From an uncultured Alphaproteobacteria bacterium (GTDB lineage: Bacteria > Pseudomonadota > Alphaproteobacteria > Rs-D84): DNA of 36,128 nt. Under the pieces are notes generated by a model. The model ran no database searches. It saw only the letters and a list, made by a program, of their open reading frames with translations, and had not been told where the DNA came from. The position numbers were made by a program, and so were the translations under genes. The stretch covers positions 1 through 36,128 of the forward strand of contig CALXMZ010000018.1 of the NCBI GenBank assembly GCA_944389645.1. The letters are read 5' to 3'. Below are positions 2,573 to 22,927 of the stretch, piece by piece; the first letter of the stretch is position 1; every line of letters starts with the position of its first letter.

Positions 2573-3508
2573 ATGTTCCGAAAAATTTTGATTGTAGCTA
2601 TGTTTGCAACAGCTGCTGGTTATTGTTTCGCAGCAGAAAGTTTACCTCAGGTTGTAACTTCAGAAGTCTTTTACGTTCAAGAAAATGACAATAATTTTTC
2701 TCAGCAGACCGAAGAATATAATGAAGAAAATTCACAAATACAACAATCTGGGCAAATCGCTCAGATCCCTGTGTGGCCCATAGCAGGTTCTGATGCTGAC
2801 GTTGAAGTCTCTTGTGAAGATAATACAGAACTGAAAAATTCTGATAATATCAGAATAGTATCAAAAATCGGGGCAGATTTAGTTGTTGAAAATAATATTA
2901 ATTTGGGAACTTCGGAAAATGATTTTGCCGGTTGGTCTGGTGGTGCAAATATGTTGCATGGGACTCAGATTCCTGTAGGGTTTGATGATGAGTGCAATAC
3001 TGGTGCAGAAATGCCGTTGCTACATCGCGAGATGTTAGAAGATGACGGTGGTACAATTCTGACAGTTTCTAGAAGTTCTAATAATAACTGCAATAGTTAT
3101 TATAAAGATGAATATACAGCATTCGCTAAAAAGATGGGGATGACCGATAAAGACTTAGAAGAGCTAAATCAGACGGAAAATGCTGATTTAGAAAGTTTAG
3201 ATATTGCCGTCGATATATCTGCAGACGCTGAACCACCTATGATAATGACGGATCAGGTGCGATCATGGGTCGTTGCTAGCGGTCAGACTTTACGAGAAGT
3301 TCTTCAAGATTGGTGTAATAAAGAGGGGTGGGATTTAGTATGGGCTACTTCCAGAGAATACCCAATTGAAGCAAGCGCTGTTTTTAAAGGGCGTTTCGTA
3401 GACGTTGCTTCCGCGTTGGTTAGAAATTTTTCTAGAGCTACACCGATACCATATGCCAAATTTTATAAGGGTAATAGAGTTTTAGTTGTTTCTACGTCCG
3501 GAGAATAA
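2573..3508 (+). CDS. TcpQ-domain type IVb pilus assembly protein
   Basis: A 311-residue exported protein (signal peptide MFRKILIVAMFATAAGYCFA). The long middle is acidic, Asn/Gln-rich and likely disordered. The last 80 residues, from about Trp232, fit the TcpQ/PilL C-terminal domain: WVVASGQTLREVLQDW, then GWDLVWATSREYPI, a hydrophobic FKGRFVDVASALV strand-helix and a final VLVVS strand. In type IVb pilus systems such as TCP, TcpQ binds the secretin and helps place it in the outer membrane. The next gene, 27 nt downstream, is a lipoprotein secretin, which strongly supports this role. The divergent middle region matches nothing I know. Confidence 0.75.
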   Translation: MFRKILIVAMFATAAGYCFAAESLPQVVTSEVFYVQENDNNFSQQTEEYNEENSQIQQSGQIAQIPVWPIAGSDADVEVSCEDNTELKNSDNIRIVSKIGADLVVENNINLGTSENDFAGWSGGANMLHGTQIPVGFDDECNTGAEMPLLHREMLEDDGGTILTVSRSSNNNCNSYYKDEYTAFAKKMGMTDKDLEELNQTENADLESLDIAVDISADAEPPMIMTDQVRSWVVASGQTLREVLQDWCNKEGWDLVWATSREYPIEASAVFKGRFVDVASALVRNFSRATPIPYAKFYKGNRVLVVSTSGE

Positions 3509-3535
3509 ACTGGTCTTTACCAGAGGAGAAGATAT

Positions 3536-5164
3536 ATGATGAAAACTTTTAAACTGTTGTTTCTTGGTGGGCTTTTGGCTATCTTTTTTACGGGGTGTGC
3601 AAAAGAAGAATCTGCTAAGGTTGCTGCTTCTGTAGATCAAGATTTTATCAATGCTTATGATGCTTTTGAAATGGCAAAAAATCCTCGTGCAAAAGTAGAA
3701 TCAGGTGATACCGTTTCTATGTCTGAAGGTGTCTGGTTAGGCGATTCTTCTACCATTCTTGAACATAGAAATAATCTACCATCTCAATTTGAAACAGATT
3801 CAAGTATAACCATTTTATTAGATGAACCTGTTACGTTACAAGTCCTTGCTAATAATATTCATTCTATTACTGGTATACCCGTTAAAATAGATAGTCAAGT
3901 TGCGTCTGATAAGCTAAAAAAGACTATAAATATTGCTTATACAGGTAAATTATCTGGGTTGCTGTCTCAGGTCGCAACAGATTTGGATATATTATGGTAT
4001 TATGATAAATCTGCGATTGTTTTTTATGAAACGGAAACAAAAACGTTTACTTTATATGCATTAGGAACTGACGTTTCTTATCAGACCGCCGTTCAGACTG
4101 ATGACGGAAATCAAGTCTCTTTGGAATCAACTTTAAAAGAATGGGATGAGGTTGAAAACGCGATCGCTTCAATTGTAGGTAATAATGAAAATACGAATTT
4201 TACTGTGTCTCGTAGTCTGGGAACAATTACTGTTACTGCGCCCCCATCTGTTTTAAGTAGAGTAGGTGAATATATTGCTCGTCAAAACAAAAGATTGTCT
4301 CAATTAGTCACAATTGATGTTAAAGTATTGCAGGTTTCTATATCAAACGATTCTGCTTTTGGTTTAAACCTTGCGGCAGCTATTAATTCTGCTTCTGGTT
4401 TAAATATTGTTGCTAACCCTAAAAATAATCTCGCCACAACAGAAGCTAGTTCTATGAATATTGCCGTTTTATCTAATACAGTTTCTGCACTTACAGGGGC
4501 TACTCATATTGAAAATGGTGACGTTGTTTCAGGTGCTTATACCCAAGATCAAATTCAAAATGGTTCTTTGTCGGGTATCGCTGGTAGTGATGCTCTGATC
4601 CAAGCATTAGCAAAACAAGGGAAAGTTTCTTTGGTTACTAATGTCGGTGTAACTACGCGTAGTAACAGAGTTGCTCCGGTTAACAATACGAAAACTACAG
4701 GGTATATCAAAAGATTTGAGTCTCGTAATTTTACGACAGTTGAATCTAGTACTGTTGATCAGGATGACTTAGAAACTGGTTTTTCTATGCAGTTATTACC
4801 GAACGTTTTAGAAAATGGAAAGATACTTCTGCTTTTCAGAATGTCTGTTAGAGAATTATTGAAAATGTCAACTCAGACAATAGGTGAGGTTACTTTGCAA
4901 TTACCAGAAGTGGAAGAACGTAGTTTTATGCAAGAAGTAATTATGGAATCAGGGCAAATGTTAGTAGTGTCTGGTTTCGAAAAACAAACGAATAATGATA
5001 CGCGTTATGGTTTAGGAGATCCTGATTTTATGGCTTTGTCTGGTTCTCGTGAAACTGCCGCAACTCGTGATGTTTTGGTCGTGATATTAACACCACAAGT
5101 CTTAATTAGCCCAATGGATGTGGAAAGAAATATTCAGCAACATTGGGGCGCGCCATTGAATTAA
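3536..5164 (+). CDS. PilN-type lipoprotein secretin of a type IVb pilus
   Basis: Secretins form the large outer-membrane ring through which a pilus or substrate passes. This 542-residue protein begins with a lipoprotein signal (lipobox FTGC, Cys21), as in PilN/BfpB/TcpC. A periplasmic STN-like N-domain follows at about residues 90-160 (VTLQVLANNIHSITGIPVKI), then a second N-domain around 200-260 and the secretin channel domain at about 260-530. The C-terminal part has the typical MLVVSGFEKQ and RDVLVVILTPQVL strands. Two adjacent ATGs can serve as start; the first has GAGGAGA about 7 nt upstream. The TcpQ-domain gene precedes it in the same operon. No pilus ATPase, platform protein or prepilin peptidase follows, so the machine must be completed from elsewhere in the genome. 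Confidence 0.85.
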   Translation: MMKTFKLLFLGGLLAIFFTGCAKEESAKVAASVDQDFINAYDAFEMAKNPRAKVESGDTVSMSEGVWLGDSSTILEHRNNLPSQFETDSSITILLDEPVTLQVLANNIHSITGIPVKIDSQVASDKLKKTINIAYTGKLSGLLSQVATDLDILWYYDKSAIVFYETETKTFTLYALGTDVSYQTAVQTDDGNQVSLESTLKEWDEVENAIASIVGNNENTNFTVSRSLGTITVTAPPSVLSRVGEYIARQNKRLSQLVTIDVKVLQVSISNDSAFGLNLAAAINSASGLNIVANPKNNLATTEASSMNIAVLSNTVSALTGATHIENGDVVSGAYTQDQIQNGSLSGIAGSDALIQALAKQGKVSLVTNVGVTTRSNRVAPVNNTKTTGYIKRFESRNFTTVESSTVDQDDLETGFSMQLLPNVLENGKILLLFRMSVRELLKMSTQTIGEVTLQLPEVEERSFMQEVIMESGQMLVVSGFEKQTNNDTRYGLGDPDFMALSGSRETAATRDVLVVILTPQVLISPMDVERNIQQHWGAPLN

Positions 5165-8553: not shown

Positions 8554-9840
8554 ATGCAAGTAGCGGCGAAAAAAATGATGACTGACTTGGAACAAATCAA
8601 GGGGGCCATAGCCGCAAAAATGGATGTCGCAAGTTATTCTTCTTGGATAGCACCTTTACAATTTGAAATTTGTAATGATAATCTTTTACTTGTTGCTCCA
8701 AATCAGTTTTCTGCAGATTTTATAGGTAGTGTGCACATAAACGTTTTAACTTCTGTTGCGCAAGATTTTGGATTAAATGTAAAAATTTGTGTTCGGAGTG
8801 CAAATGCTTCTGCGTCTGTAGCTAATGATAATAATTTTCAAACTTATACTCCTGTAAATGTAGATAAAGTAGAAAATCTTATGAAAAATGAAGCGTTTGA
8901 TAATTTTATTTCATGTGAAGAAAATTCTTTTGTATTATCTGCATGTAAAAAATTAGCTGCAGGAAAAGTTTCTTTTTCTCCGTTATTTATTTATGGGGCT
9001 GCTGGTTGTGGAAAATCATTATTAGTAAATTGTATCGAAAATTCTTCGAATGGGCGCACAATAAAAATGTCTGGTGGTCAATTTGTATCAGAATTTGCAC
9101 GTAGTTTACATAATAAATCAATATTTGCTTTTAAAGATTTCTGTCGTAATTGTGATACTTTTATTTTGGATGATGTTCAAATGTTGGTTGGTAAACATGC
9201 AACGTGTGAAGAGTTCATTCAATTATTAATAGATTTAAAATCTGAAGGTAAAAATATAGTTATTACAGCAAATGTGGCCCCCAATAATTTGTCTGGGTTC
9301 GATCGTCGCATGCAGTCTTTGTTAGCATCTGGTTTGGTTGCTGATATGGTATCTCCTAATTTGAATGTAAAACGTTTAATGTTAACTCGTGCAGGGGTTT
9401 CTTCTGATGTTGCTTCTGTAATCGCAACGCGTGTCGTGGGTGACGGTCATTTAATATGTGGTATAGCAACAAAAATCAAAACATATTCTGAACTGATGGG
9501 TGAAACAGTTACATTAGAAATCGCGCAACGTTTGTTGGCAGATACTTTGCAGAAATCAAAAACGCCGGTTTCAATGGTAAAATCAATGTGTGAAAAGTTA
9601 GGGGTATCATATGATGCCGTTAGTGGTAAAGGGCGTAGTCGTGCGGTTGTTTTGGCGCGTCAGATTATTATGGTTGTTTTGAAAAATGTGACGAATATGT
9701 CTTTGTCAGAAATAGGCTGTGTATGTGGTGATCGTGATCATGCGACGGTATTATATGCAATATCTCAGATTGAAAAATTAAAAGAAACAGATTTAGTTCT
9801 GGCAGCACAAATAAACCAACTGATAGAAGAATATAAATAA
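8554..9840 (+). CDS. dnaA: DnaA, replication initiator, with divergent AAA+ switch motifs
   Basis: DnaA binds oriC and opens it in an ATP-dependent way. The 428-residue protein keeps the domain order: domain I (SYSSWIAPLQFEI, about residues 27-90), a linker, AAA+ domain III, and DNA-binding domain IV. Walker A is GAAGCGKS (148-155) and Walker B has Asp206-Asp207. Domain IV has the signature CGDRDHATVL (391-400), the counterpart of GGRDHTTVL. In contrast, the box VII arginine finger (E. coli Arg285 in SRFGWGL) aligns with Leu256 in SLLASGL. Sensor II Arg334 aligns with His299 (GDGHLICG). Both residues are key to the ATP-DnaA switch, so regulation may differ. It is far from dnaN, unlike the classic dnaA-dnaN order. 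Confidence 0.9.
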   Translation: MQVAAKKMMTDLEQIKGAIAAKMDVASYSSWIAPLQFEICNDNLLLVAPNQFSADFIGSVHINVLTSVAQDFGLNVKICVRSANASASVANDNNFQTYTPVNVDKVENLMKNEAFDNFISCEENSFVLSACKKLAAGKVSFSPLFIYGAAGCGKSLLVNCIENSSNGRTIKMSGGQFVSEFARSLHNKSIFAFKDFCRNCDTFILDDVQMLVGKHATCEEFIQLLIDLKSEGKNIVITANVAPNNLSGFDRRMQSLLASGLVADMVSPNLNVKRLMLTRAGVSSDVASVIATRVVGDGHLICGIATKIKTYSELMGETVTLEIAQRLLADTLQKSKTPVSMVKSMCEKLGVSYDAVSGKGRSRAVVLARQIIMVVLKNVTNMSLSEIGCVCGDRDHATVLYAISQIEKLKETDLVLAAQINQLIEEYK

Positions 9841-9933: not shown

Positions 9934-11292
9934 ATGAAAAAATTAGTAGTATTCGGCGGTTTTATTTTAAATGTTTTTTTGGCGTTGACACCTAATTCTG
10001 GTTGGGCAGGTTGTAATTCTCCTGTAACATTAGGATTTGATGGGAATCAAGAACCTACAGATGATGAGTTTTTATATGAAAATGAAAAAGAATTCGCTCT
10101 TACTCAAAGTGGGTTTATAAACAGTGGAAAACAGAATTCTGGTGATGGTAGAGGTTATGAGTGCGATGAGTTTAATAGTCCGAGTTGTGCTATTGACGAT
10201 GAGATAGAAATGCCTATAGGTCATGTTTTTAAAGGTGAAGTGATACAAAAAAAACGTAGGTATAAGTGTGTAGTTGGACTTTTCGGTGATGATAAATGGG
10301 AAATCGTAGATGATGGCTTTTGTTCAACAAAAGCTTTTGGAGATATAGCTGTAGGATCTTGTGTTGAAGAAGGAAGTAATTGTAAAAATCTTACAGACAT
10401 TGATTGCAGTGGTTATAACAAGACAGATAGTAATGGTACTATTTTTTATGGTATTTGTTTAGATGGTCCTAAGTTTATTTGTAAAGCGGTTGAATGTAAA
10501 GACGGTTTTTTTGCAAATGATGATGGTATTTGTGTCCCCAAACAACAAAATAATGATAATGAAAAAGATGATAACGATGATGGTAACGGGGATGATGACG
10601 GAAATTCTAATTATTCATGCCTTCAGCGTTGCATAAATTTAACAGGCAGTCAGAAAGCTGAATGTGCTGCTTGTTGTGTCGTGCCCGCTTCGTTGGCAAA
10701 ATGGGAAAATGGGGTATGTAAGTGTCAACAAAATCCAAATCAGAAATTTAATATCTCAGAATTAAAGTGTGAGGATGTTGTTGCGCAACCTGAGATAAAT
10801 GATCCGAATGCATGCGATCCTGAACAATTGGCTCAAATAATGCAATGGAAAATAAAATATTCTTCTAATGCAGAAATTTCTACTTTAATTGACGTTGTAA
10901 TTCAATATTGTAACGGAAACTCAAAAAATAAAGAAGTATTTAATGCTTATTTCTTGAATATTCAGATCACAATAAATGAGCTTGAAGAAGGTAAAAAGGT
11001 TTCTTCGGAAATGAATGCATCTAAAACCAAAATAAGTGCTGCTGTTGAAGAAATGGATACTATTTCTGCTGGTTTTGATGATAGCGTCTGGAAAAATGAG
11101 GAAGGAAAATTTAATACTTCTAGACTTATATCTGATTCTGTAGCAGGAGTCGTTTTAGGTACTGCAGGAGGACTAATCACAAGTAGCGTATTAAAGAAAA
11201 ATCAAGTAGAAGATGGTTTCGAGAATATTCAATGCACAATCGGGGGGCAAGTTGTTGCAGGTTGGGGAGATCAGTTCGTGGTTGGAAGATAA
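9934..11292 (+). CDS. Cys-rich secreted protein with Asp/Asn linker, function unknown
   Basis: A 452-residue exported protein (signal peptide ending NSGWA before GCNSP). The N-terminal two thirds contain many Cys in small repeats such as CKAVECKDGFFANDDGIC and CAACCVVP, which suggests disulfide-stabilised domains in the periplasm or outside. They are split by an acidic low-complexity linker (DDNDDGNGDDDGNSN, about residue 213). A helical segment follows, then a C-terminal module with a glycine-rich hydrophobic stretch (SVAGVVLGTAGGLITSSVL, about residues 395-413) and a closing IQCTIGGQVVAGWGDQFVVG. I do not recognise a named family; similar tails occur in surface proteins of gut alphaproteobacteria. 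It is a single-gene transcript with its own promoter and terminator. Confidence 0.7.
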   Translation: MKKLVVFGGFILNVFLALTPNSGWAGCNSPVTLGFDGNQEPTDDEFLYENEKEFALTQSGFINSGKQNSGDGRGYECDEFNSPSCAIDDEIEMPIGHVFKGEVIQKKRRYKCVVGLFGDDKWEIVDDGFCSTKAFGDIAVGSCVEEGSNCKNLTDIDCSGYNKTDSNGTIFYGICLDGPKFICKAVECKDGFFANDDGICVPKQQNNDNEKDDNDDGNGDDDGNSNYSCLQRCINLTGSQKAECAACCVVPASLAKWENGVCKCQQNPNQKFNISELKCEDVVAQPEINDPNACDPEQLAQIMQWKIKYSSNAEISTLIDVVIQYCNGNSKNKEVFNAYFLNIQITINELEEGKKVSSEMNASKTKISAAVEEMDTISAGFDDSVWKNEEGKFNTSRLISDSVAGVVLGTAGGLITSSVLKKNQVEDGFENIQCTIGGQVVAGWGDQFVVGR

Positions 11293-21808: not shown

Positions 21809-22927
21809 ATGGAATTTTCAGTATTTCGTCAGGTTTTGATACGTGCGCTGGGACATATGCAGTCCATAGTCGAAAAGCGTGCCACTTTGCCGATATTGAT
21901 GAATGTAAAGTTAGAAGTTGCGGAAGATCTTATATTATCTGCAACAAACGTTGACCTGGAATTGGTAGAGCATGTCGCTGCAGATATAACTTTGGGTGGT
22001 AAAACAACTGTACCTGTACAGATGTTATATGACATTGTACGTAAGTTACCAGATGATTCAGAAATTTCTTTTAAACAGTCTGGTGATCAGTTGGTCGTTT
22101 CTAGTGGTAGGGCTGTATTTCGTTTGCCGACGTTACCTGCAGAAAATTTTCCTGCAATGGCGGGAAGTAACTTGACAACTAAGTTTCAAATGACTACGGG
22201 TGATCTGGCTCATTTAATAAATCAGACGAAGTTTGCTATACCAACGGATGATGTTCGCTATCATTTAGGTGGAATTTTTTTCCATATATCAGATGAAAGT
22301 AAAGAAAAAATGTTAACTGCCGTTGCAACGGATGCTCAGCGTATGGCGTTGTGTGCTATGCCGGCACCGACGGGAAGTCTTGAAATGCCGTCAGTTATCT
22401 TACCAAGAAGAGTTATAGGTGAATTGTCTAAATTGTTAGAAGATGCAAACGTTGATGATGTTATGGTGGAGCTTTCTGATACGAAAGCAAGATTTACTGT
22501 CGGGTCTGCCACTCTTACAAGTAAGTTAGTTGATGCTCAATACCCGAATTATAAAGTCGTTATACCAAAAGGTAACGATAAAATTGCAATTATGGATAGA
22601 AAGCAGTTTTTAAATGCTGTTGATCTTGTTTCTGTGGCAAGCGTTGATAAGACTAAATCTGTACAGTTAACTTTCTCGCTGAATAAATTAGTCGTTAATG
22701 CTTCTAGTCCAGATGCGGGAACCGCAACGCAGGAATTAGATATCGAATATAATAGTGATGCTTCGTTTACAGTTACTTTTAACGTAAAGTTTTTGATGGA
22801 TGTTGCTGGTCAGGTTGAAGGTGATACCTTCCAAATGGAGATGCAGGATCCTTTGTCGCCGACGATTATAAAGTCAACCGACAAAAAGACTGATTCATTG
22901 TTCATATTAATGCCGATGAGAATGTAA
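21809..22927 (+). CDS. dnaN: DnaN, DNA polymerase III beta sliding clamp
   Basis: The beta clamp encircles DNA and tethers polymerase III and other repair proteins. The 372-residue protein fits the family length and three-domain layout. It begins EFSVFRQVLIRALGHMQSIVEKRATLPILMNV. The middle has RYHLGGIFFHIS and VATDAQRMALCAMP, and the end is MQDPLSPTIIKSTD...LFILMPMRM, the standard C-terminus that builds the partner-binding pocket. AGGAG lies about 9 nt before the ATG. A terminator follows directly, so dnaN is a single-gene transcript from its own promoter or a read-through partner of cdaA. Confidence 0.97.
   Translation: MEFSVFRQVLIRALGHMQSIVEKRATLPILMNVKLEVAEDLILSATNVDLELVEHVAADITLGGKTTVPVQMLYDIVRKLPDDSEISFKQSGDQLVVSSGRAVFRLPTLPAENFPAMAGSNLTTKFQMTTGDLAHLINQTKFAIPTDDVRYHLGGIFFHISDESKEKMLTAVATDAQRMALCAMPAPTGSLEMPSVILPRRVIGELSKLLEDANVDDVMVELSDTKARFTVGSATLTSKLVDAQYPNYKVVIPKGNDKIAIMDRKQFLNAVDLVSVASVDKTKSVQLTFSLNKLVVNASSPDAGTATQELDIEYNSDASFTVTFNVKFLMDVAGQVEGDTFQMEMQDPLSPTIIKSTDKKTDSLFILMPMRM

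Follow-up and report, generated by a model that had tools for sequence, protein, structure and literature searches.

The window, a stretch of 36,128 nucleotides, comes from Candidatus Enterousia (Alphaproteobacteria, order Rs-D84) and belongs to an assembly of 768 kb that is 79% complete. A 2025 study assigned Enterousia to Rs-D84, an order of reduced-genome Alphaproteobacteria of animal guts for which a partner-dependent lifestyle is presumed (PMC12306168). The features discussed here are listed in Table 1. The first of them encodes a genuine DnaA, as its AAA+ domain III (PF00308, Bac_DnaA; 105.9 bits, 3.1e-30) and its helix-turn-helix domain IV (PF08299, Bac_DnaA_C; 67.6 bits, 9.6e-19) score above the curated cut-offs of 23 and 31.5, respectively. 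The DnaA_N domain (PF11638; 33.4 bits, 3.8e-8) exceeds its cut-off of 24.6 as well. An AlphaFold2 model of the protein (mean pLDDT 82.7) returned exclusively DnaA as top matches in Foldseek, and its domain III could be superposed on the DnaA of T. maritima at 2.0 Å and on that of B. subtilis at 1.7 Å. Sequence identity to the solved DnaAs is low overall, at about 28%. A second, canonical dnaA was looked for in the genome and none was found; the sole other PF00308 match (C7) is RuvB-like and was identified as RuvB by sequence reading.

Table 1. Features of the window that bear on the DnaA nucleotide switch
Feature	Coordinates	Strand	Remarks
dnaA	8554..9840	+	428 aa; only dnaA found in the genome; domain profiles, fold comparison
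Walker A region PLFIYGAAGCGK	8980..9015	+	residues 143-154; Lys154 retained family-wide
Walker B Asp206-Asp207	9169..9174	+	second Asp replaced by Gly in three genus-g23 relatives
Box VII / finger helix DRRMQSLL	9301..9324	+	residues 250-257; basic residue gained at 251, Gln254 replaces Lys283
Leu256 codon	9319..9321	+	arginine-finger position; E. coli R285, T. maritima R251
His299 codon	9448..9450	+	sensor II position; E. coli R334, Caulobacter R357
Domain IV (Bac_DnaA_C)	9577..9771	+	DnaA-box-binding R361, R369, Q370, D395, H396, T398 retained
dnaN, sliding clamp	21809..22927	+	not adjacent to dnaA

The initial annotation proposed that this DnaA has lost two arginines that sense ATP, while the Walker motifs and the DNA-binding signature are intact. 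Both parts of this proposal hold. In an alignment of 137 sequences, which included the DnaAs of E. coli and B. subtilis, the arginine finger R285 of E. coli corresponds to Leu256 and the sensor II residue R334 to His299, and the AlphaFold2 model and the solved DnaAs concur. A phmmer alignment with T. maritima DnaA (2z4r), counted by eye, places Leu256 at R251, the finger residue whose mutation revealed its need in ATP-dependent cooperative binding (PMC10316083). In the model, Leu256 ends a helix (251-257) and His299 begins another (298-315). Neither alignment nor fold comparison offers another arginine at the finger or the sensor II site, so that both arginines of the canonical ATP switch are absent. 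Further substitutions relative to E. coli are found in sensor I (D269 to N240), in the H-motif (V211 to A182) and in box VII (D280 to R251, K283 to Q254). In the alignment, Walker A, Walker B and the signature of domain IV are preserved, as are the equivalents of F46, R227 and R281; domain IV retains those of R399, R407, Q408, D433, H434 and T436 and departs at two residues (T435 to Ala, H439 to Tyr).

It was found that the two substitutions extend throughout a family, f1, which consists of the window's genus and nine neighbouring genera. The family count is 111 distinct DnaAs (the alignment lists 112 rows, as the window's own sequence was entered twice). The finger residue is Leu in 92, Val in 18 and Ile in one; the sensor II residue is His in 110 and Asn in one. 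Sequencing error or chance can thus be dismissed. His299 is encoded by CAT in 94 cases and by CAC in 16, and such silent changes behind a near-invariant residue indicate that it is held by selection. Lys154 and Asp206 are kept in all 111 proteins and Asp207 in 108; the remaining three, from genus g23 (L143, L144, L167), have Asp-Gly for Asp-Asp in Walker B, which removes one more residue of the ATPase site. A dnaA match was absent from the fourth g23 genome, G159, which is 92% complete. The median dN/dS of the family dnaA is 0.11 over 40 pairs, a value that marks strong purifying selection. Taken together with the conserved Walker motifs and domain IV, this shows a constrained change and not decay. 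A tree built on domains III-IV groups the family as one clade (support 100/100) whose stem measures 1.72 changes per site, and since this clade is fully supported, both substitutions were most simply fixed once, on the family's stem.

As a class background, one DnaA was taken from each of 50 other alphaproteobacterial families (the 30 best and 20 lower-scoring domain matches). All 50 have Arg at sensor II and 47 have it at the finger; the three exceptions (Leu in G205 and G211, His in G220; L319, L317 and L328) retain the sensor II arginine and Hda. Within Rs-D84, both arginines occur together with Hda in genus f4/g4 and in family f6 (two of three genomes, one Hda being cut off at a contig end). 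Hda was not found in four further lineages, where its absence from single MAGs of 70-96% completeness is a less secure negative than in f1: f4/g10 has both arginines, f4/g9 keeps the finger arginine with Gly, Arg or Ala at sensor II, f2/g7 has Glu at the finger and Lys at sensor II, and f5 has Phe and Arg with a broken Walker B. The f5 protein (L052, genome G038) is highly divergent, with Glu-His at Walker B. The suggestion that the altered DnaA goes along with a reduced, host-associated lifestyle can be followed only in part, because other Rs-D84 lineages with genomes just as small retain both arginines, and f4/g4 and f6 among them retain Hda as well. Genome reduction alone was therefore rejected as the cause.

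Hda was searched for with NCBIfam TIGR03420 and with a custom profile built from seven Hda sequences. The custom profile gives true Hda 267-340 bits. In 25 f1 genomes, 24 of which are 96-100% complete, it found nothing above 34 bits, and the weak matches fall within DnaA itself. Hda was thus found neither in the window's genome nor in its 24 nearly complete relatives, and this result lends weight to a relaxed or different nucleotide switch. No Hda was found in f1 among the TIGR03420 matches listed either; the remaining weak ones are partial or lie in frames of 330-450 aa, one of them RuvB-like, and were rejected as Hda. The same model detects a separate Hda of 229-254 aa in f4/g4, which starts with a clamp-motif-like MQQLPLLLEH and carries the finger DLKTR; in most of the class members tested, the Hda measures about 210-315 aa. 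The sliding clamp, the partner that Hda needs in E. coli, is encoded in the window. In three genomes of the class with 84-97% completeness (G170, G185, G236), a DnaA match was absent, yet an Hda-like protein was present.

A sensor II residue other than Arg occurs in none of 35 lineages with Hda and in three of six without it (Fisher p 0.0019, kinship ignored); inside Rs-D84 alone the numbers are small and the association is not significant (p 0.20). The sensor II arginine is lost only where Hda was not found, while loss of the finger is compatible with Hda. This pattern is an evolutionary echo of E. coli mutant genetics. R334 is required for the intrinsic ATPase and for RIDA but is dispensable for initiation complexes; RIDA does not need R285, on which ATP-specific assembly and the intrinsic ATPase depend (PMC5742627). 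It follows that lineages with Hda should keep R334 and could lose R285 if the origin allows, and that lineages without Hda could lose both; the distribution seen agrees. The lethality of DnaA(R285A) is suppressed by an origin that is independent of DnaA-ATP and works with DnaA-ADP (PMC6727663), which indicates that a DnaA without the finger can initiate in principle.

As both arginines are lost and Hda was not found, DNA replication in the family is probably controlled by means other than the textbook ATP on/off switch. On balance, and with modest confidence, the Enterousia-family DnaA is regarded as an initiator that works without the Hda/ATP-hydrolysis cycle and without a canonical finger. 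The protein would very likely still fold as an AAA+ domain, bind nucleotide, judging from the Walker motifs, and bind DNA through domain IV. It would no longer contact the ATP of its neighbour through a canonical arginine finger, and the sensor II arginine that serves Hda-triggered ATP hydrolysis (RIDA) is gone along with, apparently, Hda itself. The predicted outcome is a loss of both hydrolysis and ATP-specific assembly. DnaA would then remain in one active state, and initiation might be limited by the amount of DnaA, by the architecture of the origin or by another regulator.

The protein is a variant of DnaA, mechanistically coherent and present across the clade, and does not represent a new kind of system. 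The DnaAs of E. coli, Caulobacter, B. subtilis and T. maritima share with it the domains, the fold, Walker A and B, R227, R281 and the domain IV residues; the Enterousia protein differs from them in L256, H299, N240 and the moved charges of box VII, and its family in the Hda partner that was not found. The engineered proteins R285A and R334A (E. coli), R251A (T. maritima) and R357A (Caulobacter) are altered at the same two positions. However, these are single changes to Ala made in the laboratory, which leave the protein defective or hyperactive, whereas in the Enterousia family both changes are natural, fixed and accompanied by others. Symbionts and cyanobacteria that have lost dnaA or their dependence on DnaA (PMC7198777) have relaxed DnaA-ATP control of initiation, as the Enterousia family may have done, but Enterousia keeps dnaA under purifying selection and its GC skew, described below, shows one origin.

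The conservation within the family also permits another explanation, in which ATP sensing is kept and the switch is remodelled. His299 would serve as the sensor II contact, and the finger would be shifted by about one helical turn to R251 and R252 in box VII, with K283 and R285 lost. This is a serious rival to the loss of the switch, although it is considered less likely. Positions of an abandoned switch should drift, so that the near-invariant His299 counts against switch loss, as does column 251 (E. coli D280), which is basic in every family member (Arg, sometimes His or Lys) and acidic (Glu or Asp) in 41 of the 50 other DnaAs. The K/R283 column has likewise become Gln in all but four family members, and nearly all members retain Walker A and B. 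On the other hand, R252 corresponds to R281, an ancestral residue of the class that plays a part of its own in E. coli (PMC5742627), sensor I varies across the family (mostly Asn, also Ser, Asp, Thr, Ala, Glu and Gln), genus g23 lacks the second Asp of Walker B, and the Hda partner was not found. The proposal of a relaxed or different nucleotide switch gains from the missing Hda and from the fit of the sensor II pattern with mutant genetics, while the sequence conservation of His299 could also suit a remodelled sensor.

The replication origin was studied in Ca. E. intestinigallinarum (G060), whose chromosome is complete (1,001,484 bp). The cumulative GC skew of this chromosome has a single minimum at 642.4 kb and a single maximum at 123.7 kb. 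The minimum sits at an rsmG-parA-parB cluster (gene names by sequence reading), and dnaA lies at about 443 kb. No cluster of DnaA boxes above chance was found on this chromosome, which is weak evidence, as exact boxes seldom form clusters in canonical outgroups either. Upstream of dnaA, 18 boxes were counted over 72 loci against 11 for a reversed-pattern control; half of them represent a single site in one subclade, and the excess is not convincing. Two parS-type palindromes, which occur nowhere else on the chromosome, lie in the rsmG-parA spacer (L239, G060 640001-660000; locus about 2960-4105). Each is followed by a conserved TAAT..TTGTTTTTAG..TTTTT T-tract pattern, which is present in most of about 15 relatives. 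The spacer is an unproven candidate for an origin or a centromere. It can be proposed, tentatively and with more doubt than conviction, that the whole family uses one origin, at which a DnaA devoid of any ATP/ADP switch starts replication with neither RIDA nor a finger-dependent oligomer, and that control operates through the amount of DnaA or the centromere-linked rsmG-parAB origin. That a canonical origin was not identified and that DnaA boxes are not clustered above chance in G060 were counted against the favoured reading of a lost switch.

The same data bear on the idea that DnaA is mainly a DNA-binding transcription regulator in this family and that replication is DnaA-independent, as in some cyanobacteria (PMC7198777), the switch having decayed afterwards. 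The lack of box clusters in G060 would fit, and three Rs-D84 genomes that are 84-97% complete (G035, G036, G159) have no dnaA match, the first two having no domain IV match as well. Nevertheless, this idea is improbable, since the two-phase skew of G060 is clear, with its one minimum at rsmG-parAB, whereas DnaA-independent cyanobacteria show an irregular skew (PMC7198777), and since the AAA+ core and the F46 equivalent are kept. That a misalignment or an assembly artefact hides another arginine at the canonical sites might be suspected from the low identity to solved DnaAs, but is hardly credible, as Walker A and B, the sensor II helix and the S-x-x-x-x-GL motif hold the alignment in place, as alignments, predicted secondary structure and fold superposition concur, and as about 110 independent sequences carry the same substitutions.

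The DnaA-ATP switch is regarded as near-universal among bacteria. The favoured reading, an initiator without this switch, concerns about a hundred species that form a natural clade without both key arginines and apparently without the inactivator. Such a clade allows a test of whether initiation itself depends on ATP sensing or just its timing does. In the literature searched, neither the DnaA of Enterousia nor a natural DnaA without the finger was found to be described. Two further regions of the window (2573-5164 and 9934-11292) were noted in passing: a TcpQ-domain protein adjoins a secretin, which points to a system for secretion or for pili, and dnaA is directly followed by a Cys-rich protein that is putatively secreted.
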